Source: a bacterium
Lineage (GTDB): Bacteria; Electryoneota; RPQS01
Reading direction: 5' to 3'
Assembly (NCBI GenBank): GCA_036504735.1
Contig: DASXUQ010000015.1
Coordinates: forward strand, 1 to 52,568
Length of the DNA: 52,568 nucleotides
Below, piece after piece: positions 6,858-19,582 of this stretch (position 1 is its first letter; every line of letters starts with the position of its first letter). Below the pieces are notes generated by a model. The model had not been told where the DNA came from and did not search any database. It worked only from the letters and a program-made list of their open reading frames with translations. Made by a program: the position numbers and the translations under genes.

Positions 6858-7262
6858 TCAGGTCACGAATGGCGCCTGTGTCTTATGACTCTTGCCATAT
6901 TCCACACCGGAGTGGACGACTTTCAGGAAGTCATCGAAATCGAAGGGCTTCAGCACTTCGGCGAACAGGATCGTATCTTTGGCTTTGATTGCCTCCCGCA
7001 GTTGCGGGTATCCGGTGACAACTACTACCGGAATTCCGCGCCCGGTCAACTGTACGGCGCGAACAAATTCGAGTTCGGTGTTGCCCGGCATCATCCAGTC
7101 GGTTACCAGAAGATCATAATCATATCTCGCCAACAGGTTCAACGCCTCGCTCGCATCATGCGCCCGGTCGCAGACATACCCCTCTTCTGACAACAGGACC
7201 GCCGTTGTACGCAGAACGGTTTCCTCATCATCGACAATCAGAATGCGCCCTGCGTCATCCAT
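6858..7262 (-). CDS. Single-domain response regulator (CheY-like receiver)
   Basis: 134 aa consisting only of a receiver domain. Acidic pair D11-D12, phosphoacceptor D55 (LLVTDWMMPG), T83 (VVVTGYP) and K105 (VLKPFDF) are all in place. No DNA-binding or enzymatic output domain follows; the last ~15 aa are a short polar tail. Its ATG overlaps the end of the upstream kinase gene by 8 nt (7255-7262), so the two are translationally coupled and surely a cognate pair. It probably acts by protein-protein contact or passes the phosphate to another protein, as free receivers do. Confidence 0.93.
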   Translation of the reverse strand: MDDAGRILIVDDEETVLRTTAVLLSEEGYVCDRAHDASEALNLLARYDYDLLVTDWMMPGNTELEFVRAVQLTGRGIPVVVVTGYPQLREAIKAKDTILFAEVLKPFDFDDFLKVVHSGVEYGKSHKTQAPFVT

Positions 7263-12809: not shown

Positions 12810-12810
12810 A

Positions 12811-12860
12811 AGCGAAAAGCGAAAAGCAAAAAGCAAAAAGCAAAAATAGAAAATAGAAAA
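12811..12860. repeat. A-rich simple repeat
   Basis: Several imperfect copies of AAAAGC/AAAAAGC followed by two copies of AAATAG directly after the DUF35 stop codon. Seen in sequence; no function inferred beyond providing a T-tract for minus-strand termination. Confidence 0.6.
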
Positions 12861-12888
12861 TCCGCGCTTCAGAAATGGGGCGCGGATT
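12859..12888. terminator. Bidirectional terminator, mainly for the minus-strand operon
   Basis: Stem AATCCGCGC (12859-12867) with GCGCGGATT (12880-12888). On the minus strand it is followed by a long T-rich tract (complement of the A-rich repeat), which is ideal for ending the RelA/SpoT-ParA operon. On the plus strand it also follows the DUF35 gene. Confidence 0.7.
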
Positions 12889-13014
12889 CGTTTGTTCGTA
12901 GTTGTGTCTGTACAATTCCTCGACCGGAAAACGTTAATGTCGATATTCAAGTCTTAAACCGATAATATCGTAAAGCAAATATCCAGACATATGGCGGTCG
13001 ACAATCAGGCTGCG

Positions 13015-13731
13015 TCACGCATGTGGTGTTGATTCCTTCGACTTTTTGTGGTCCTCGTGAGACCTAATAATAGATCCTACAAGCCTTACACAGCCATTAG
13101 TCAGATGTGCAAACGCCTTTAACTGTTCACTACATGCCAAGCTGTCGGTCGGAACTGGGTAGTTTATGGAATGTTCAATCTCACCCCATTCTTCCTCAAG
13201 AAGTGTACGAGCCTGAATCTCAAACGTGTATGGCTTTTTGTGATAACTCTCCAGTACGTAGTGGACGCTGGTATACAGAGTAGTTCGTCTCTCTGTCTTC
13301 ATACCCAAGTTCTCAAAGAATCCGGCGGTTTCATCGTCAAATACCATGGCGATTGGTCCCTCGATGATCCGATAGCTCCCTTGGTCAGCCCACGCACTTA
13401 GCGCACTGTCGATATATCGTATTTGATCTCTATGAAGGTAAAGAACTCTAATTCCAATGATGTCGTTCACTCCCTTGAGCAGATCGCCTTGTGGGATAAT
13501 AAGTCTCTGTTTGTCATATTTACGCTTCAATTTATCTGCCAGATGAGTCTCATCCTTGATTCTTGATCGGATTGAGTGAACGAGGGGCTTTAGCGCCTTA
13601 TCATTAGAGATTTCGTTAATGATGTTCCCGCGCATTGTCACAAGTTGCTCGAAAGAATCACGATAGTGTGCTAAATGGCCTTCAACATAAGCGTTGAAGT
13701 CAAAGTTCTCGCCGTCAACAATTTCAGCCAT
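13015..13731 (-). CDS. RelA/SpoT-fold alarmone synthetase domain protein
   Basis: 238 aa made almost wholly of a RelA/SpoT nucleotidyltransferase domain, without the hydrolase, TGS or ACT domains of long RSH proteins. Basic ATP-contact segment SRIKDETHLADKLKRKY (57-72), catalytic D90 (VNDIIGIRV), the Y153-T-S-V-H157 motif, and E171 in FEIQART with H187 downstream all align with residues required for (p)ppGpp synthesis or related pyrophosphate transfer. The core therefore looks active. Its start overlaps the ParA-like gene by 8 nt, so it is translationally coupled. Small synthetases of this fold act as housekeeping alarmone enzymes or as toxins that modify nucleotides or tRNA. The operon context, with no partner resembling a classic antitoxin, is unusual. 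Exact product is unknown. Confidence 0.85.
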   Translation of the reverse strand: MAEIVDGENFDFNAYVEGHLAHYRDSFEQLVTMRGNIINEISNDKALKPLVHSIRSRIKDETHLADKLKRKYDKQRLIIPQGDLLKGVNDIIGIRVLYLHRDQIRYIDSALSAWADQGSYRIIEGPIAMVFDDETAGFFENLGMKTERRTTLYTSVHYVLESYHKKPYTFEIQARTLLEEEWGEIEHSINYPVPTDSLACSEQLKAFAHLTNGCVRLVGSIIRSHEDHKKSKESTPHA

Positions 13732-14695
13732 TGTAATACCGCATTATTCCGTTTGCAATTTCAACAAAAACCTGTTCGGCAGCAGCACCAGCCCCGCCCA
13801 CTTCCCACCACGGCAGACCTTCGCGTTGAGCACGCAAGGCACTTTGTCCGAAATCCCTCACTTCTCCGAGCTTGCACTCAGAAGCACCTCTTTTTGCAAG
13901 TTCAGGAAATCTCTCACGGATTCTCCCAATAACTTCGCTGCTCATTCTCACTTCGAGTTTCGTCATGAAGCCTGAGTAGTCTGATGCCGGTAGCCCGCCC
14001 CACACTTTGAACCGCTGTGGAATGTACCCAATGATTTCTGGCTTTCCGCGGAGCAAAACCGCATGGTCGGGTGGGTTGGTCGACAGCCCTTGCCATTCCA
14101 CAATCCACTTTACCAGCGTATGACCAAGAGTTGATAACGCTCGGAGTGAGAAGTCATCGCATGCCGCTGGGATGATCACGCCGTCACAGTCAAGGACTAT
14201 CGCTTTGTTCAGGGGCCCAATATTGGGTCCAGAATCATAAAAGACGAAATCTGCGTCGACCTTCTTGGCGGCATTTTCAACCATTCTGCTAATGGCAGTA
14301 ACTCTAGCGTAGCCCCGTATTCTTCTCTTGGAGCAGTCGCCAAATGCATCAGATAAATCTTCCTCGAATTCTGAAAGACTGATGTCGCCAGGAATCAAAA
14401 AGAGGTTGTCACGCCTTTCTACGGGTTCAATCTCTTTTGGCGCACTTTGGCCACTCATCACAGGATACACCGCAGACCAAATAGTACGTCCACGCTCAGT
14501 CAAGGATTCATTCAGCCATTCACCGACAGCCTGCTCGTCTGCAAGATATGTGGTCAAACTACATTGTGGATCAGAATCGACCAACAAGACCTTTTGACCG
14601 AGTTTTGCGAGAGCAAATGCGATATTTGCAGTCAGGCTTGTTTTTCCCACCCCGCCCTTGTGATTGAAAATTGCTATTCGCTTGAATGTAGTCAT
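13724..14695 (-). CDS. ParA/MinD-family ATPase
   Basis: 323 aa. Deviant Walker A KGGVGKT at residues 13-19, and VDSDPQ at 40-45, as in ParA-type ATPases; a later VFYDSGPNIGPLNKAIV segment matches the Walker B/switch region. It carries no N-terminal DNA-binding extension, and no ParB or centromere-like repeats are visible nearby. That argues against simple plasmid partition and for a regulatory or localisation role. It is the middle gene of a tightly coupled set: its ATG overlaps the stop of the 199-aa gene by one base (TAATG), and its end overlaps the alarmone-synthetase start by 8 nt. ATP-driven dimerisation could gate the synthetase; that is inference. Confidence 0.88.
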   Translation of the reverse strand: MTTFKRIAIFNHKGGVGKTSLTANIAFALAKLGQKVLLVDSDPQCSLTTYLADEQAVGEWLNESLTERGRTIWSAVYPVMSGQSAPKEIEPVERRDNLFLIPGDISLSEFEEDLSDAFGDCSKRRIRGYARVTAISRMVENAAKKVDADFVFYDSGPNIGPLNKAIVLDCDGVIIPAACDDFSLRALSTLGHTLVKWIVEWQGLSTNPPDHAVLLRGKPEIIGYIPQRFKVWGGLPASDYSGFMTKLEVRMSSEVIGRIRERFPELAKRGASECKLGEVRDFGQSALRAQREGLPWWEVGGAGAAAEQVFVEIANGIMRYYNG

Positions 14696-15294
14696 TATTT
14701 AGACCGCTTCGAAGCTTTAGAAGTCTTCGTCCCGTTCTTCGGCCTGCGTGATCTTCGTGTCGGTTTCGATTCTGCAACCGCAGCCTTTGCTGCGTCTCTG
14801 TCGGGCAGGGCTTGAACGAAAATTTCTCCGATGGCACTTAACCTCCAAAAATTCTTGGATGGAGAAATGATATATCCGGCAGCCACCGCGTTGCTCAACG
14901 ACAGCGATGGATTTGACAATTTTCTCTGTGCCGCCTCCGTATTTGCAAGGCTTATGTCGCGAGTCTGAAATTCGGTCAAGTTCTGATAGTGAGTCAAATA
15001 GTAGGCGAGACAAGCTATTTTCTCTACGTCTGCTTGAGGCTTCTTCTGAAATAGGAACTCTTTTGCGGAAATGGTTCGGTCTCGCGAGAAGTCGTCTATT
15101 GGCATCCTGCGGCTCTCAGCGTCAATTTGAGGCCGATCGGTATCTCGTCCTCGGTTCGTATCAATTTGGTAAGTCTGTTCGAAGTATTTGTTGATGAGCC
15201 CTAGAATGCGACGTTGCTCAGGCGGATCAAGTTGACGCAATTGCGTCAAAACTTGCTCGAGAATCTTTATGTCGTCAAATGTCTTTTCTGGCAT
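14695..15294 (-). CDS. Conserved hypothetical protein, first gene of the ParA/RelA-SpoT operon
   Basis: 199 aa from ATG 15294 with AGGAAC upstream. I do not recognise a named family. The N-terminal ~70 aa are polar, possibly helical (LEQVLTQLRQLDPPEQRRIL). The central part, about 75-175, reads like a compact helical, possibly winged-helix domain (VEKIACLAYYLTHYQ, ISLANTEAAQRKLSN, AAGYIISPSKNFWRLSAIGE). The C-terminal ~30 aa are very basic (Lys/Arg/Ser-rich), suggesting nucleic-acid contact. As first gene of the operon with a one-base overlap to the ParA-like gene, it could be the DNA- or RNA-sensing partner. Function unknown. Confidence 0.75.
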   Translation of the reverse strand: MPEKTFDDIKILEQVLTQLRQLDPPEQRRILGLINKYFEQTYQIDTNRGRDTDRPQIDAESRRMPIDDFSRDRTISAKEFLFQKKPQADVEKIACLAYYLTHYQNLTEFQTRDISLANTEAAQRKLSNPSLSLSNAVAAGYIISPSKNFWRLSAIGEIFVQALPDRDAAKAAVAESKPTRRSRRPKNGTKTSKASKRSK

Positions 15295-15353
15295 GTGACT
15301 GTTCCTGTTGAAAGTGTCTTGTCGTTCATGGGATGCTTGGGCATGACCTACTG

Positions 15354-15382
15354 AAAGTTAGTAAAAAAAACCAGATTGTCAA
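15354..15382 (-). promoter_or_regulatory. Possible promoter of the three-gene minus-strand operon
   Basis: On the minus strand TTGACA (15377-15382) is followed by a T-rich spacer. At 17 nt the -10 is a poor AACTTT; TACTAA occurs nearer. Only the -35 is convincing. It lies 60-90 nt upstream of the start at 15294. Confidence 0.35.
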
Positions 15383-15480
15383 TAATTCGCTTCCCCATAG
15401 ATCCAACGTGTATCTCGTGTCTCTCCGCCTAATCTGACCGCAAAGTTCAACCCCTTCATAGTAGTTGTTCTTATGTGCAA

Positions 15481-15515
15481 ATATAGTTATCGGAATTGTC
15501 CTCTTGACAAACCCA
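15481..15515 (+). repeat. 35-nt repeat, left copy (inverted relative to 19422-19456)
   Basis: Matches the minus-strand sequence of 19456-19422 at 31 of 35 positions; the last 17 nt (TCCTCTTGACAAACCCA) are identical. Similarity stops abruptly at both ends. The two copies face inward and bracket the small genes, the structured RNA, the tRNA elements and the IS1595-like transposase. Each contains a TTGACA that could serve as a -35. Confidence 0.7.
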
Positions 15516-15582
15516 TGATTTTCGGTACGGTTGTTCAACGCCAGAGTTGAATCAGAGAATAACCAGAACGGAGACTCAGACA

Positions 15583-15813
15583 ATGGAAGGCGAACAAAAA
15601 GCCCCGGCACAAGGGGCCAAGGCGCAACGCAAAAGGGGTGTGGACATAGAAAACGAGGCGGACTCGCCCGTTACCTGCTTGTACAACAAACTGTGTGAGA
15701 CGGCCCAAGCACAAGGGTTCGTGGTTCTGGCAGGAACGCGCACGATCAGGGAGGATGCCGCCATTTTTGGTGGCTCCTATGCGGACATCACCGTGCGAGT
15801 GGAATTGACCTAA
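15583..15813 (+). CDS. Small hypothetical protein
   Basis: 76 aa from ATG 15583 with GGAG 9 nt upstream; the frame is open from 15547 but the upstream Met has no Shine-Dalgarno. The N-terminal half is polar and basic (KAPAQGAKAQRKRG); the C-terminal half may form a small alpha/beta unit (VTCLYNKLCETAQAQGFVVL, ITVRVELT). Its stop overlaps the end of the convergent small gene by 4 nt. Not recognised; codon use resembles its neighbours, so it is plausibly real. Confidence 0.5.
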   Translation: MEGEQKAPAQGAKAQRKRGVDIENEADSPVTCLYNKLCETAQAQGFVVLAGTRTIREDAAIFGGSYADITVRVELT

Positions 15814-16031
15814 CGGCTCATTCCCCCGTGCGTTCCTGCGGGCGGATGGATTTTGCGGGACTGATGGTAGTCCTCATAGTTGCGATGGATCTTCTCCGAC
15901 ATGTCCTCGATCTTCTCGAAGTCAAATTCCCCGGTGGCCTGCGTAATGACAAGGCTCTCGAAGTTCTTGACGATCACGGCGGCGAGAATCGCCTGTTCGA
16001 GTCCCGGCACTTTGGTATGCTGTTTTACCAC
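15810..16031 (-). CDS. Small hypothetical protein
   Basis: 73 aa from GTG 16031, which lies 6 nt after AAAGGAG (16038-16044 on the complement); the in-frame TTG at 16037 touches the Shine-Dalgarno and is less likely. Residues ~10-30 are hydrophobic to mixed (LEQAILAAVIVKNFESLVIT), followed by an acidic helix and a basic tail. No membrane segment is certain. Family not recognised. It is convergent with the preceding small gene. Confidence 0.5.
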   Translation of the reverse strand: MVKQHTKVPGLEQAILAAVIVKNFESLVITQATGEFDFEKIEDMSEKIHRNYEDYHQSRKIHPPAGTHGGMSR

Positions 16032-16070
16032 GTTCAACTCCTTTGGTTAAGTTCTTAGACAATGTAGGAG

Positions 16071-16098
16071 TTGAGTGGGACAATAGCAAGGATATACA
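16071..16098 (+). promoter_or_regulatory. Possible promoter upstream of the structured leader
   Basis: TTGAGT (16071-16076), a 16-nt spacer and TATACA (16093-16098). A transcript starting near 16105 would run at once into the terminator hairpin at 16109-16133 and then into the structured RNA, so either the hairpin attenuates or another promoter is used. Confidence 0.4.
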
Positions 16099-16108
16099 TT
16101 CTAAGCTT

Positions 16109-16133
16109 AAACCCGTCGCGCTGACGGGTTTTT
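16109..16133 (+). terminator. Rho-independent terminator or attenuator
   Basis: AAACCCGTC (16109-16117) pairs with GACGGGTTT (16123-16131), loop GCGCT, followed by TT. Perfect 9-bp stem with a T5 run (16129-16133). Confidence 0.8.
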
Positions 16134-16171
16134 GCTTGATTTCCTGCCTCCAAAGCCTTACCTTTTCCCTA

Positions 16172-16326
16172 TCCTACCCAAGCAATGCCGGGTTTCCGGC
16201 AAAGCATACTTATGAACGTGAATGACCCGTGCCCCTTCAATTGGGACATGGGCCTCTGGTGTGGTCATGAGTATGCCTTTGCTTGGGTAGGACCAGCACA
16301 GGTCATTCGTCTGATACCCAGAGGCT
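16172..16326 (+). ncRNA. Large structured RNA element upstream of the lipoprotein gene (candidate riboregulator)
   Basis: Outer stem of 14 perfect pairs: 16172-16185 (TCCTACCCAAGCAA) with 16279-16292. Directly inside is a small hairpin TGCCGG-GTTT-CCGGCA (16186-16201). A second long stem pairs 16204-16215 with 16265-16276 (12 pairs, one G-U). An apical stem pairs 16226-16234 with 16243-16252 (9 pairs, one G-U, one bulged A, 8-nt loop). Downstream, GGTCATTC (16301-16308) can pair with GAATGACC (16220-16227), and CCAGAGGC (16319-16326, followed by TCTTTT) with GCCTCTGG (16252-16259); these cross each other and compete with the nested fold. That is the layout of a switching or pseudoknotted leader. 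It ends 30 nt before the lipoprotein start. No known RNA family was recognised. Confidence 0.5.
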
Positions 16327-16355
16327 CTTTTACGTCCAAGGAAAGGGAAACACAC

Positions 16356-17084
16356 ATGAACCGCTTAGGAACTGTCTTGGTCTTGTCCGTCATGGCGCTC
16401 GTGCTGATCGGCGGGTGCAAGCCCACGCCGGAGCAGATGGCACAAAAGCTGTTTGACGAAGGGAAGTACGAGGAACTGCTGGCCAAGTACCCAAACACGG
16501 CGCTGGGGGCAGAAGCCAAAGACAAGGTGGCGGAGAAGCTCTTCGCCGAGGGCAAATACGATTTGGTGGCGCGGGACTATGCTGATACCCGTTTCGGCCC
16601 GCAGGCCAAGGCTCACATTCCGGGAACGCCGAGCGCGGACTCCCTACTGGCGAAGGAAGCGGAGCAGGTGAACGGGATACGTCTGAACGCGGTCAAGACC
16701 GAGTGGGCTTTCGATGGGACGTATCTACGGCCTTCGATCAAGCTTGAAGCGAAGAATGTGACGGCTGACCGCCCGATAGTCGGTATCTACGTAGCGGCAA
16801 CGTTCCTGAACACCGGGACGCATGAGGTCTTTGGGTCGGGGTCGGAGAACCTGCAAGCCCGCTCGGCCTCGGCCCTGCCTCCGGGGTACTCGGTCAAGGG
16901 GGCTGTTACGTGTAACGCAGGCTTCGAGCCGCACCTCGCGCCCGACAATCTCCCGGACATCACGGCGAATTTGACCGTAGAAGTGTCCGAGGGAAAAGGC
17001 GCGAGCTACCGCGATCACTCCTTCACGATGTCCGTTCCCATCAGCAACAAAGTGATGGGAAAGGCGTGGGGCAAGAAGAAATAG
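16356..17084 (+). CDS. Lipoprotein with short TPR-like repeats
   Basis: 242 aa from ATG 16356; the frame is open from 16185 but that region is the structured RNA. A lipoprotein signal peptide ends in the lipobox LIGGC (Cys at residue 21). Two ~28-aa repeats follow (MAQKLFDEGKYEELLAKYPNT, then VAEKLFAEGKYDLVARDYADT), resembling the tetratricopeptide motifs of outer-membrane assembly lipoproteins. The C-terminal ~150 aa look like a beta-sandwich with FxxxG-like strands (TYLRPSIKLEAKNVTADRPIVG, FLNTGTHEVFG). Probably anchored in the inner leaflet of the outer membrane. Exact family unknown. It is followed by a strong terminator at 17106, and so is transcribed alone. Confidence 0.8.
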   Translation: MNRLGTVLVLSVMALVLIGGCKPTPEQMAQKLFDEGKYEELLAKYPNTALGAEAKDKVAEKLFAEGKYDLVARDYADTRFGPQAKAHIPGTPSADSLLAKEAEQVNGIRLNAVKTEWAFDGTYLRPSIKLEAKNVTADRPIVGIYVAATFLNTGTHEVFGSGSENLQARSASALPPGYSVKGAVTCNAGFEPHLAPDNLPDITANLTVEVSEGKGASYRDHSFTMSVPISNKVMGKAWGKKK

Positions 17085-17105
17085 CGCCGTGAATTTACGG
17101 AGGTT

Positions 17106-17140
17106 AAAGGGCCGTTCTTGGGAGCGGCCCTTTCTCTTTT
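17106..17140 (+). terminator. Rho-independent terminator after the lipoprotein gene
   Basis: AAAGGGCCG (17106-17114) pairs with CGGCCCTTT (17125-17133), 10-nt loop, followed by CTCTTTT. Confidence 0.85.
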
Positions 17141-17190
17141 ACCGCTTGCAAGCATAATCTTATTACAATATTAAGAATGTGGAAATAACT

Positions 17191-17304
17191 TATAAATCTA
17201 TTTCTTTAGGACAGGGTGCCCCGCTGAGGTCTATTTCGCGCATAAGATATAAATGTATTTCTCACAGATGAGAATTTTGATTTGAGAGATATAAAAGTAT
17301 ATCT
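17191..17304. repeat. Three AT-rich operator-like repeats
   Basis: Copies at 17191-17205, 17248-17262 and 17290-17304 share the 15-mer core TATAAAnnTATWTCT. The third is a perfect palindrome, AGATATA-AAAG-TATATCT. They fill most of the 423-bp AT-rich gap between the lipoprotein and the next gene, which encodes a possible DNA-binding protein; binding sites for it are a natural guess. I saw no gene in 17141-17507. Confidence 0.45.
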
Positions 17305-17411
17305 TTTGCCGATCTAATAGACAAGCAAAGAGAGGCTTATACGCCTCTCCTCTTGAGCCTACAGCATTGAGATTTGAATCTCTTTTGTGTTGCATGAGAT
17401 AATATATAACG

Positions 17412-17420
17412 TGGTATACT
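17412..17420 (+). promoter_or_regulatory. Extended -10 promoter element
   Basis: TGGTATACT gives an extended -10 (TGn-TATACT), with a weak TTGCAT about 19 nt upstream. It precedes the start at 17508 by roughly 80 nt. Confidence 0.45.
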
Positions 17421-17507
17421 GTTTCTATGATGTGACTTTTGGTGGCAAAGGGCTTGTATTGTTGCCAAAGCGGGAGTATATTTGAGCACTAACTGAAGAG
17501 GTTGATC

Positions 17508-17915
17508 ATGCCTAATACGATCTCTCTCGATGACATCGAAAAGCGGCTCCACGAGATAGACCGCAAGATCAAGAAACTCGAAGAAGAGAAAACAGAAATC
17601 CTTCGGGCCAAGACTATTCTGTTTGTTAACGATAGTGCGTCTGTCCCTGCCGACACGGGCACTAATGTGTACAAGGTGGTGTCGAAATCCCTCGATGTTA
17701 TCCTGTGGGAGGCGTTTCAGGAGGAACCGGATAAGAAGTTTACCGAGGATGATATTGCACAACTACTGGCTGGCAAGCGTCTGGAGGGAGTATTCACGGA
17801 TGCCGCACGTAACCTCCGGGGTTATGCCCGCCCCGTTCTGGGACGCATGGCCCGAACGGGGCAGATTAAGCAAGGGAAATCTGCCGACGGGCAAGTCTGG
17901 TACAAGAAGGCATGA
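17508..17915 (+). CDS. Hypothetical protein with coiled coil and winged-helix-like C-terminus
   Basis: 135 aa from ATG 17508 with AGAGG upstream. Residues ~5-40 form an acidic/basic coiled coil (DIEKRLHEIDRKIKKLEEEK). After a linker, residues ~58-135 look like a small helical domain with a terminal wing (FTEDDIAQLLAGKRLEG, NLRGYARPVLGRMARTGQIK, ending QVWYKKA), a pattern common to winged-helix regulators. The conserved-looking GQIKQGKSADGQVWYKK would be the wing. It may self-regulate through the AT-rich repeats just upstream. Family not recognised. Confidence 0.65.
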   Translation: MPNTISLDDIEKRLHEIDRKIKKLEEEKTEILRAKTILFVNDSASVPADTGTNVYKVVSKSLDVILWEAFQEEPDKKFTEDDIAQLLAGKRLEGVFTDAARNLRGYARPVLGRMARTGQIKQGKSADGQVWYKKA

Positions 17916-17986
17916 TCTGTCAAGGCCTCCAAACACACGCTATCTGAGGAGAGTTCAGCTTGTCGTAGCTATATTCTAAAACGAGA

Positions 17987-18018
17987 ACAGCCCCATGCGC
18001 GGTAACACATGAGGCTGT
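17987..18018. repeat. Hairpin just upstream of the tRNA-Gly gene
   Basis: ACAGCCCCATG (17987-17997) pairs with CATGAGGCTGT (18008-18018) in 10 of 11 positions, with a 10-nt loop. It ends 8 nt before the tRNA. No T-tract follows, so it is not a typical terminator; it could be a processing signal. Confidence 0.5.
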
Positions 18019-18026
18019 AAACATCG

Positions 18027-18100
18027 GCCCCTGTAGCTCAACTGGAAAGAGTTCTCGGCTCCCAACCGGGCTGTTACGGGTTCGAGTCCCGTCAGGGGTA
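18027..18100 (+). tRNA. tRNA-Gly (anticodon CCC)
   Basis: A full cloverleaf: acceptor GCCCCTG/CAGGGGT (first pair G-U), D-arm GCTC/GAGT with loop AACTGGAAA, anticodon stem CTCGG/CCGGG with loop CTCCCAA (anticodon 18061-18063 CCC), T-arm ACGGG-TTCGAGT-CCCGT, discriminator A. No encoded CCA. The body differs from ordinary bacterial tRNA-Gly (usually GCGGG at the 5' end, U73), so the amino-acid identity is less certain than the structure. It sits in the accessory region. Confidence 0.8.
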
Positions 18101-18116
18101 CTACACCTTCGCAATT

Positions 18117-18187
18117 GGGGCGACTGGGTAAGGGACTGTGGTTTTAGAGGCCCGCGTCCGAGGGTTCAACTCCCTCTCGCTCCACCA
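18117..18187 (+). tRNA. tRNA-like element lacking a normal D-arm (possible pseudo-tRNA, anticodon TAG)
   Basis: Acceptor stem GGGGCGA (18117-18123) with TCGCTCC (18177-18183), discriminator A and an encoded CCA (18185-18187). The T-arm GAGGG-TTCAACT-CCCTC is perfect. Only 36 nt separate acceptor and T-arm, about six fewer than normal. They fold as CTGGGTAAG followed by one long hairpin, GGAC-T-GTGGT with GCC(C)GC-GTCC, loop TTTAGAG, so no D-stem can form. The loop would place anticodon TAG (Leu). It is either a decayed tRNA or a D-armless tRNA-like structure. Confidence 0.5.
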
Positions 18188-18274
18188 AAGGTAACTCCAA
18201 TGTAGTTATAGAATATGAATTTGTCAAGGGGCAGTTGCCACAAATCCCATGTCTATAACACGTTTCTCAAGCCT

Positions 18275-18481
18275 TTATTTCTTCGGCTTTTTGATGCCTT
18301 TCTCGCGGAGCCGCTCCTCGACTTTTTGGGGGTCGGCCTTCATGAATGTGAGCAATGCCTCGTCTGCCGTCAGGGGGTATAGCGATAGCGGCCCTTCCCG
18401 TTCTTTGGGCGGAGGGGCCTTGTCCGTCGGGGTCTTGGACTTTCGTTTGGGCTTGGGTTTCGGTGGCTCCTCTGGGGTCAT
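18275..18481 (-). CDS. Small Pro/Lys-rich protein coupled to the transposase
   Basis: 68 aa. The ATG overlaps the transposase stop by 4 nt (ATGA), so translation is coupled. The first ~30 aa are Pro/Lys-rich and disordered; the second half (LSLYPLTADEALLTFMKADP, then KVEERLREKGIKKPKK) forms one or two helices. It is not recognised as a named family. The tight coupling suggests an accessory factor of the element; a general DNA-binding or regulatory role is only a guess. Confidence 0.6.
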   Translation of the reverse strand: MTPEEPPKPKPKRKSKTPTDKAPPPKEREGPLSLYPLTADEALLTFMKADPQKVEERLREKGIKKPKK

Positions 18482-19377
18482 AGTACCTCCTCGGTTAACT
18501 TCGAGTAGGTCAGCCGCTTGCCGCCCATGTTGGCGATAACCGAATCACACCGCTCGGCATCTGTTACCTTGCGGAAGCTCCAGCGGAAGGAGAACTCGTG
18601 GCAGTAACGGCCTAAGTGCTTCTTCGAGACGTGGTGGAACGTCCCGTGTACGCCCCGCTTCAACAGCGCGAAATACGCCTCAGCCGAGTTCGTATTCACG
18701 TCCCCACGGGCATACTCGCCACGGCTATGGCACACTGTCTGATGCCCACCCTCGAAATGCTTCCCGATCCCGCCGTAGGACTTCCACTCATCCGTCATGA
18801 TCCGGGAGTCCGGTAGGACGGTTTCCTTGATCGCCCGGTGGAGCGTGTCCTTGGTCGCATCCGGGATCTTCCGGGAGTAGGCTCGGCCATCGCGCTCGAT
18901 CATCGCCAAGACCGGGGTTTTCTTTTCGCTCCGGCCCTGTGACCACCGCCCCGTCTTTTTCCCGCCGACATACGTCTCGTCCACTTCGACCGTCCCTTGC
19001 AGAACGCCCATTAGCTCCATTGCCGCCCGGATACGGTGACAGAGGAACCACGCGGACTGATAGGAAGTCTTACCGAGTTCCCGCTTGATCTGGAGGGCGC
19101 TCATGCCCTTCTTCGAGGAAGTCATCAGGTGAAAGACGATCAGCCACTCCTTGCACGTGAGGTGCGAGCGGTGCATCACCGTACCCACGGTCACCGTGAA
19201 CTGCTTCCGGCAGGCCGCGCACTTATACAGGCCCTCCCGATGGGCCTTGCCCGTTAAGGTATAAATCTTATCTTTGTTGCCACAGTGGGGACAGACCGGG
19301 CCATCGGGCCAGTATAGGTTCTCGATGTGCTGGCGGGCTTCCTCTTCCGTGAGCCTGCCGATTTGCGCGAGCGTCAT
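18478..19377 (-). CDS. IS1595-family (ISXO2-like) transposase
   Basis: 299 aa, full length for the family. An N-terminal zinc ribbon (CPHCG near residue 29, CAACR near 53) precedes the DDE-type ISXO2-like catalytic domain. Asp residues lie in VEVDETYVGG and in IMTDEWKSY, and the third position is N in VNTNSAEAYFALLKRG, as in the DDN/K variants of IS1595. No frameshift is visible, so it may be active. It has a near-consensus promoter at 19405-19433 and the Shine-Dalgarno AAGGATGAAAG. The small gene after it is translationally coupled. 35-nt inverted repeats at 15481 and 19422 may mark the element's ends. Confidence 0.93.
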   Translation of the reverse strand: MTLAQIGRLTEEEARQHIENLYWPDGPVCPHCGNKDKIYTLTGKAHREGLYKCAACRKQFTVTVGTVMHRSHLTCKEWLIVFHLMTSSKKGMSALQIKRELGKTSYQSAWFLCHRIRAAMELMGVLQGTVEVDETYVGGKKTGRWSQGRSEKKTPVLAMIERDGRAYSRKIPDATKDTLHRAIKETVLPDSRIMTDEWKSYGGIGKHFEGGHQTVCHSRGEYARGDVNTNSAEAYFALLKRGVHGTFHHVSKKHLGRYCHEFSFRWSFRKVTDAERCDSVIANMGGKRLTYSKLTEEVL

Positions 19378-19404
19378 GTTCTTTCATCCTTCTTGCTTGC
19401 CCTA

Positions 19405-19433
19405 AATATACGAATTAATTCTGGGTTTGTCAA
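19405..19433 (-). promoter_or_regulatory. Promoter of the transposase gene
   Basis: On the minus strand TTGACA (19428-19433), a 17-nt spacer and TATATT (19405-19410). The start codon at 19377 follows about 28 nt downstream. The -35 lies inside the 35-nt inverted repeat. Confidence 0.75.
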
Positions 19434-19456
19434 GAGGATTATTCCGATAGTTATAT
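19422..19456 (-). repeat. 35-nt repeat, right copy (inverted relative to 15481-15515)
   Basis: Its minus-strand sequence matches 15481-15515 at 31 of 35 positions, with the 17-nt TTGACA-containing end identical. It sits directly upstream of the transposase and supplies its -35 hexamer. Confidence 0.7.
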
Positions 19457-19527
19457 GTATACCGAGCCTCCTATATAGATGCCCCGAATAGGCTCATCCG
19501 AACCCACAGGGATAATGACGGGGAACA

Positions 19528-19558
19528 AGCGACCCGGCCTTTCTGAGGCCGGGTCGCT
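19528..19558. terminator. Bidirectional terminator between transposase region and C25-like gene
   Basis: Perfect 13-bp stem AGCGACCCGGCCT (19528-19540) with AGGCCGGGTCGCT (19546-19558), loop TTCTG. On the minus strand it follows the end of the 1723-aa C25-like gene (19583) and runs into TTGTTCC. Confidence 0.8.
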
Positions 19559-19582
19559 CTGTTTCGAAGCGTGAAGAACGCC

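Follow-up and report, generated by a model that had tools for sequence, protein, structure and literature searches.

The window, meaning the whole analysed stretch of 52,568 nucleotides (contig DASXUQ010000015.1, from a bacterium of the Electryoneota lineage), carries a compact operon of three genes on its reverse strand, within a block that differs between related genomes. The features of the locus are listed below.

14695-15294, minus strand: gene 1, a 199-aa protein without known family (open reading frame)
13724-14695, minus strand: gene 2, a 323-aa ATPase of the ParA/MinD superfamily, AAA_31 (open reading frame and Pfam)
13015-13731, minus strand: gene 3, a 238-aa protein with the small alarmone synthetase fold, RelA_SpoT (open reading frame and Pfam)
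12810-19580, strand not applicable: variable block between conserved flanks, holding the operon (GC dip and comparison with the related genome G029)
18478-19377, minus strand: IS1595/ISXO2-type transposase, part of the context and not of the system (PF12762, 1e-37; PF12760, 4.8e-16)

Adjacent genes of the operon overlap, as an earlier note on this DNA had claimed: the open reading frame coordinates give one shared nucleotide between genes 1 and 2 (14695) and eight between genes 2 and 3 (13724-13731). The same note had placed the operon in an accessory block near a transposase, and its surroundings agree with that description. The GC content of the operon is 0.46-0.49, against about 0.58-0.62 in the flanking DNA, and the IS1595-type transposase lies 3.2 kb away in the same block. 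In G029, the same left-hand genes (a thiolase and a DUF35-type OB protein) are followed by other, unrelated genes, which places the operon in a variable block, and a homologue of the window's large right-hand protein appears further along. The operon is present in two of the 11 genomes of its family, and its neighbours in the second of these (G035, locus L007) differ from those in the window. No defence gene was identified among the neighbours of the window copy. The arms of a 40-nt inverted repeat (85% matched; 15481-15520 and 19417-19456) lie on either side of 4 kb that contain the transposase and two tRNA-like genes; they are possibly the ends of a transposable unit, or else a shared promoter-like element immediately upstream of the operon.

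The product of gene 3 matches Pfam RelA_SpoT (4.6e-13). Its active site, which the earlier note had read as intact from D90, the Y-x-S-x-H motif (here Y153-T-S-V-H157), E171 and H187, is complete: all these positions are present, and R57, K59, D90, G93, R95, Y153, H157, E171, Q173, R175 and H187 are invariant in 32 synthetase homologues. A confident AlphaFold model (pLDDT 93.8) retrieved RelP/RelQ as the best fold matches (E 1.8e-10), followed by CapRel (2.4e-6). Neither the model nor Pfam revealed a hydrolase domain or a fused neutralising domain, so control of the enzyme must come in trans. The domain, the catalytic residues and the missing hydrolase domain together assign the protein to the RelA/SpoT-fold small alarmone synthetases. 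The copy at L029 is split and looks damaged. For both housekeeping functions the window genome has other proteins, a long RSH of 749 aa and a chromosomal Soj-ParB pair, and so does not depend on the operon for either.

The 323-aa product of gene 2 belongs to Pfam AAA_31 (8.3e-28) and retains the deviant Walker A motif KGGVGKT, again in line with the earlier note, with K13, K18, D40 and D154 invariant in all 23 aligned ATPases; every aligned member has the deviant Walker A lysine and the catalytic aspartates. Its profile matches PDB 3pg5, an uncharacterised protein, over nearly the full length (E 2.4e-53), and this entry is a ready structural template. In PADLOC-DB, the proteins of the operon had no specific profile match, and the matches returned were weak or limited to the P-loop.

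The ATPase and the synthetase form a conserved pair. When 84,980 species genomes were scanned with the synthetase as sole query, 63 loci were found, the top 24 of which come from KSB1, Poribacteria, Beta- and Gammaproteobacteria and Myxococcota and show 34-52% best-segment identity to the window synthetase. A ParA-like ATPase lies directly upstream on the same strand in every one of these 24, and is absent from all 17 remoter loci examined (identity 34% or less; Clostridium, Bacilli, Spirochaetes and others). In viral contigs, a synthetase-only search found the ATPase upstream in 22 of 24 loci, the two exceptions carrying a truncated (L103) or a remote (L112) synthetase. Overlap is the rule at the junction between the two genes (26/39, median -4 nt). 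A separate scan of 399 Burkholderiales genomes, which newly revealed the pair at L211, returned three strong synthetase matches, all accompanied by the ATPase, and two weak ones without it; the pair occurs in about 1% of Burkholderiales genomes. Such conservation across cellular and viral loci excludes chance adjacency, and the co-occurrence in unrelated genomes that the earlier note had proposed as a check holds for these two genes. Judged from gene order and junctions, the core unit is this pair, conserved and translationally coupled in unrelated genomes.

The pair is also found on islands and on the megaplasmid of Caballeronia sp. NK8 (L003), where a break in the P-loop region (around 6860-6900) interrupts the ATPase frame and the synthetase frame is still open, which could reflect decay, phase change or a sequencing error. 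In seven Poribacteria loci (L017-L019, L021, L022, L027 and L030), the pair occupies largely one conserved chromosomal neighbourhood. This neighbourhood contains dioxygenase-like genes and an alcohol-dehydrogenase-like gene, unlike that of the mobile copies elsewhere.

The 199-aa protein has a much narrower distribution. Its family was detected in only three independent sources, namely the window, the KSB1 genome G035 (L007, 52% identity) and IMG/VR contig 3300031813_000821 (L089, 42%), with the gene first and the order unchanged in all three; the search gave no plasmid match. About 45 other ATPase-synthetase loci have a two-gene form without it, so the core consists of two genes, and a strictly three-gene system, the content on which the earlier note had built its proposal, was rejected as a conserved unit. 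At L008 (Burkholderiales), the gene upstream of the pair encodes an AbiTii-domain protein (2.7e-40). The 199-aa protein matches no significant family in Pfam, NCBIfam or PADLOC. Residues 6-41, in its N-terminal part, are predicted to be helical; a strongly conserved middle (about 70-170) and a Lys/Arg-rich tail follow. Its AlphaFold model was poor (pLDDT 54.6), gave no match in a fold search and was discarded. Because of this, a possible winged-helix type for the conserved middle, and a role as DNA-binding regulator or as sensor or adaptor, are guesses from sequence features.

Homologues of the pair recur in settings associated with phage defence. In P2-like prophages, the stretch that separates replication gene A from portal gene Q has been described as an anti-phage hotspot (Rousset 2022, PMC9122126), and five distinct proviral loci show the order gpA, ParA-synthetase pair, gpQ (L094, L095 with its duplicate L097, L096, L098 and L109); at L091, the pair adjoins gpQ. 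In E. coli, the pair is annotated as ParA family and RelA/SpoT domain proteins in seven of 5,426 complete genomes (WP_089588522.1, WP_176599854.1), with a synthetase 37% identical to that of the window. In the two of these seven contexts that were read, a P2-like prophage carries small genes after the replication endonuclease, then the pair and, immediately after it, the portal gene. As far as gene order tells, homologous pairs are located in defence hotspots, although such sites also carry non-defence cargo, including a 'putative plasmid partitioning system' (PMC9122126). Cellular copies adjoin HsdR (L020), a PDC-M01A/B pair (L026), Ppl (L012, L029) and DUF262-type HEC-06 (L029), and one viral copy (L093) adjoins a PARIS AriA-like ATPase. 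PADLOC families numbered 81 near the pair versus 34 in a comparison set (93 neighbours each), a crude count drawn from different taxa that is at most suggestive of defence enrichment.

A search with the ATPase itself, covering the best 80 viral loci plus plasmids, connected it to a wider set of partners. Within this sample, ATPase relatives are joined, by overlap or a near-zero gap, to HEPN proteins at 12 loci (three confirmed as PF18735, HEPN_RiboL-PSP), and others are joined to SIR2 proteins at six (two confirmed as PF13289, SIR2_2), to 'IDILGF'-type cyclase-like proteins at four (recognised by eye, without Pfam match) and to a PglZ-domain protein at one. At L124, L125, L130 and L138, the ATPase gene overlaps or abuts an 'xDILGF' gene whose product resembles class III nucleotide cyclases without a Pfam match, and these proteins are a possible further effector class. 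On a Salmonella Infantis plasmid (L077, 2411-5425), a DNA methyltransferase gene is followed by a ParA-like ATPase gene and a SIR2 gene, and the ATPase and SIR2 genes share 4 nt. At L135 (1758-6296), and also at L087 and L137, an AlbA_2-like gene (by eye) precedes the ATPase gene; at L135, a PglZ-domain protein after the ATPase gives a BREX-like mixture. Lone ATPase relatives are common in prophages, as in the repressor/cro/CII region of the P22-like phage ST160 and of E. coli prophages, and one occurs in the filamentous phage Pf1. In most HEPN-linked ATPases, in the cyclase-linked ones and in lone E. coli prophage ATPases (L074, L076, L143), the P-loop sequence is KGGVSKT, with Ser (once Cys) in place of Gly, and in the synthetase- and SIR2-linked ones it is KGGVGKT; the substitution could alter hydrolysis.

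In a tree of these ATPases, the window protein groups with L007, L089, L008, L010 and lone prophage ATPases, whereas most synthetase-linked ATPases form a separate 25-member clade. SIR2-linked and cyclase-linked ATPases each form a single clade, and the HEPN-linked ones nearly do so. A single clade of synthetase-linked ATPases, which would imply one origin of the pairing, was rejected (AU p 0.013, from a quick tree with long branches), whereas the synthetases themselves group together in a tree with weak support (78). The simplest reading is that partners have switched, or that the pairing was formed on more than one occasion; this is probable, with the caution that long branches demand. The family of the window ATPase is a broader one, of prophages and defence loci, whose effectors are exchangeable, a relationship absent from the earlier reading.

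The closest published counterpart is the dyad of HEPN (MAE_18760 family) and ParA/Soj proteins, predicted to be a toxin-antitoxin system with the ATPase postulated as antitoxin (Anantharaman et al. 2013, PMC3710099). As in the window, the gene for a ParA-type ATPase overlaps or abuts that for a putative toxic effector, and the HEPN-linked loci of the present analysis have ATPases from the same broad family as the window's. The window differs in its effector, which is RelA_SpoT while HEPN appears in sister loci, and in its KGGVGKT P-loop, HEPN-linked ATPases having mostly KGGVSKT. The toxSAS and CapRel systems are established synthetase effectors (PMC11782079, PMC9712102) and share with the operon the alarmone-synthetase fold, an intact active site and an adjoining partner that may control the enzyme. 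The partner here is instead a ParA-like ATPase (AAA_31), the fold search ranks RelP/RelQ above CapRel and FaRel2, and the operon showed neither PanA nor an ATfaRel2-type, hydrolase or CapRel-type fused domain. RelP/RelQ themselves resemble the window synthetase in fold and catalytic residues, at about 20% identity; unlike them, the window-type synthetase is strictly ParA-linked and mobile. GiPD474, a lone ParA/MinD/Soj-like ATPase of a Gifsy prophage, confers resistance to T4 and Alf5, whose plating drops by about 5 logs (PMC12724215, 2025); it is likened to the window ATPase by fold class and size only (AAA_31, similar size, prophage-borne) and is a single gene without a separate effector. 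In strain 14028s, a ParA-like gene of Gifsy-1 belongs to a group of three genes and has no ParB with it (PMC9879122); the immunity region of this prophage holds a three-gene remAIN cluster (PMC12724215). Systems of the P2-like gpA-gpQ hotspot share their prophage slot with homologous pairs; the main text of the hotspot study does not mention the pair by name and refers only to the 'putative plasmid partitioning system' at the site (PMC9122126).

The reading we favour, and hold to be fairly probable, is that the operon is a mobile anti-phage module of abortive-infection type with a toxin-antitoxin design. The ATPase would be the switch and the synthetase the effector, and we infer that the two, co-produced from overlapping genes, probably form a complex. 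In the uninfected cell, the nucleotide-bound ATPase would hold the synthetase silent. A phage-induced event would then alter the nucleotide or oligomer state of the ATPase, freeing or activating the synthetase, which would pyrophosphorylate a nucleotide (GTP/GDP or ATP/ADP) or a tRNA 3' end, so that growth halts before phage maturation. The 199-aa protein of the window subtype would probably serve as operon regulator or sensor adapter. In this scheme, complex formation, the sign of control (inhibition or activation), the trigger, the substrate and phage protection are all conjectural parts. It draws on the constancy of the pairing in cellular (24/24) and proviral (22/24) loci, the invariant catalytic residues, the positions of homologues in the gpA-gpQ hotspot and beside defence genes, the coupling of related ATPases to HEPN_RiboL-PSP, SIR2_2 and cyclase-like proteins, and the precedents of the predicted HEPN-ParA/Soj toxin-antitoxin dyad, the antiphage GiPD474 and the synthetase effectors toxSAS and CapRel. 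The non-defence cargo of P2-like hotspots, the crudeness of the neighbour enrichment (81 vs 34) and the window copy's lack of an identified defence neighbour weigh against it. The earlier note had suggested a defence, abortive-infection or stability module without a classic antitoxin. The first idea is supported for the conserved pair, with homologues in hotspots and no sign of partition, and is not supported for the three-gene content as the conserved unit; the second stands for classic antitoxin families and not in general, since the ATPase or the 199-aa protein may act as one.

The sign of control cuts across the readings and is judged separately. An ATPase that activates the synthetase or is its required co-factor, in a sensor-effector arrangement, is a tentative but serious possibility: GiPD474 acts without a partner and prophages often carry lone ATPases of the family, so that sensing or action may reside in the ATPase itself. 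The postulated antitoxin role of ParA in the HEPN dyad, and a fixed gene order and overlap that fit an antitoxin followed by its toxin, speak for inhibition instead.

The same order and overlap, together with the toxin-antitoxin prediction for the HEPN-ParA dyad, underlie the main rival to the anti-phage reading, namely addiction, in which the ATPase is the antitoxin and the synthetase the toxin of a unit that stabilises prophages, plasmids or islands, any phage protection being absent or incidental. Overlapping pairs on proviruses, the Caballeronia megaplasmid (L003) and islands agree with it. We nevertheless regard addiction as unlikely, given the preference for the gpA-gpQ defence hotspot, the many chromosomal copies with no obvious mobile element adjoining, and an ATPase that is larger than usual antitoxins and, unlike them, catalytic. 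Less probable again is resident stress signalling, with the ATPase positioning or gating an ordinary (p)ppGpp synthetase on a cellular cue and not on phage infection. The Poribacteria pairs, confined largely to one chromosomal neighbourhood, look more like a resident function than a roaming defence gene, and the synthetase fold is nearest to housekeeping RelP/RelQ and not to FaRel/CapRel; both points count for this reading and against the anti-phage one. Resident signalling fits poorly with a genome that already has a long RSH, with an operon in two of 11 family genomes and in low-GC variable DNA, and with the rarity of the pair in Burkholderiales.

A query with the genome's own ParB found no ParB homologue in 49 ParA-synthetase loci, a search of limited sensitivity because this single sequence missed a partial P1 ParB, and neither a parS-like site nor a centromere-like repeat array was found in the window, as the earlier note had also reported for ParB and repeats. 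Plasmid partition was rejected on these grounds: a cassette whose ParA-like protein segregates DNA with the synthetase as passenger is highly improbable, despite the ParA annotation of the family and its match to the PHROG profile for ParA-like partition proteins, since the ATPase and synthetase families are linked across phyla and the ATPase family excludes both P1 ParA and the Soj of the window genome, which sit on very long branches. The grouping with partition proteins that the earlier note had named as its refutation is not borne out.

Beyond the operon itself, the anti-phage reading can be extended, with confidence falling slightly short of even, to a family of ParA-switch immune systems. 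One prophage-borne ATPase lineage would sense infection and fire interchangeable effectors (synthetase, HEPN RNase, SIR2 or cyclase-like proteins), and the window operon would be a subtype with a DNA-binding-like third protein. No published account of a ParA-linked synthetase was found, the surveys of Jimmy et al. 2020 and Burroughs et al. 2015 lying beyond the reach of the search. The ParA-synthetase pair is probably undescribed, its HEPN version having been predicted in 2013 and a single-gene ParA-like analogue assayed in 2025.

ParA-type ATPases are generally read as DNA-segregation proteins, and prophage genes annotated 'ParA family protein' are usually passed over. On the present evidence, one branch of these ATPases is consistently paired with toxic-type enzymes and is found at sites known for anti-phage genes. 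Should the ATPase turn out to be a switch that responds to phage, bacterial immunity would gain a new sensor class, tied here to alarmone synthesis, and many orphan ParA genes of prophages would be accounted for, perhaps among them the T4-blocking one reported in 2025.
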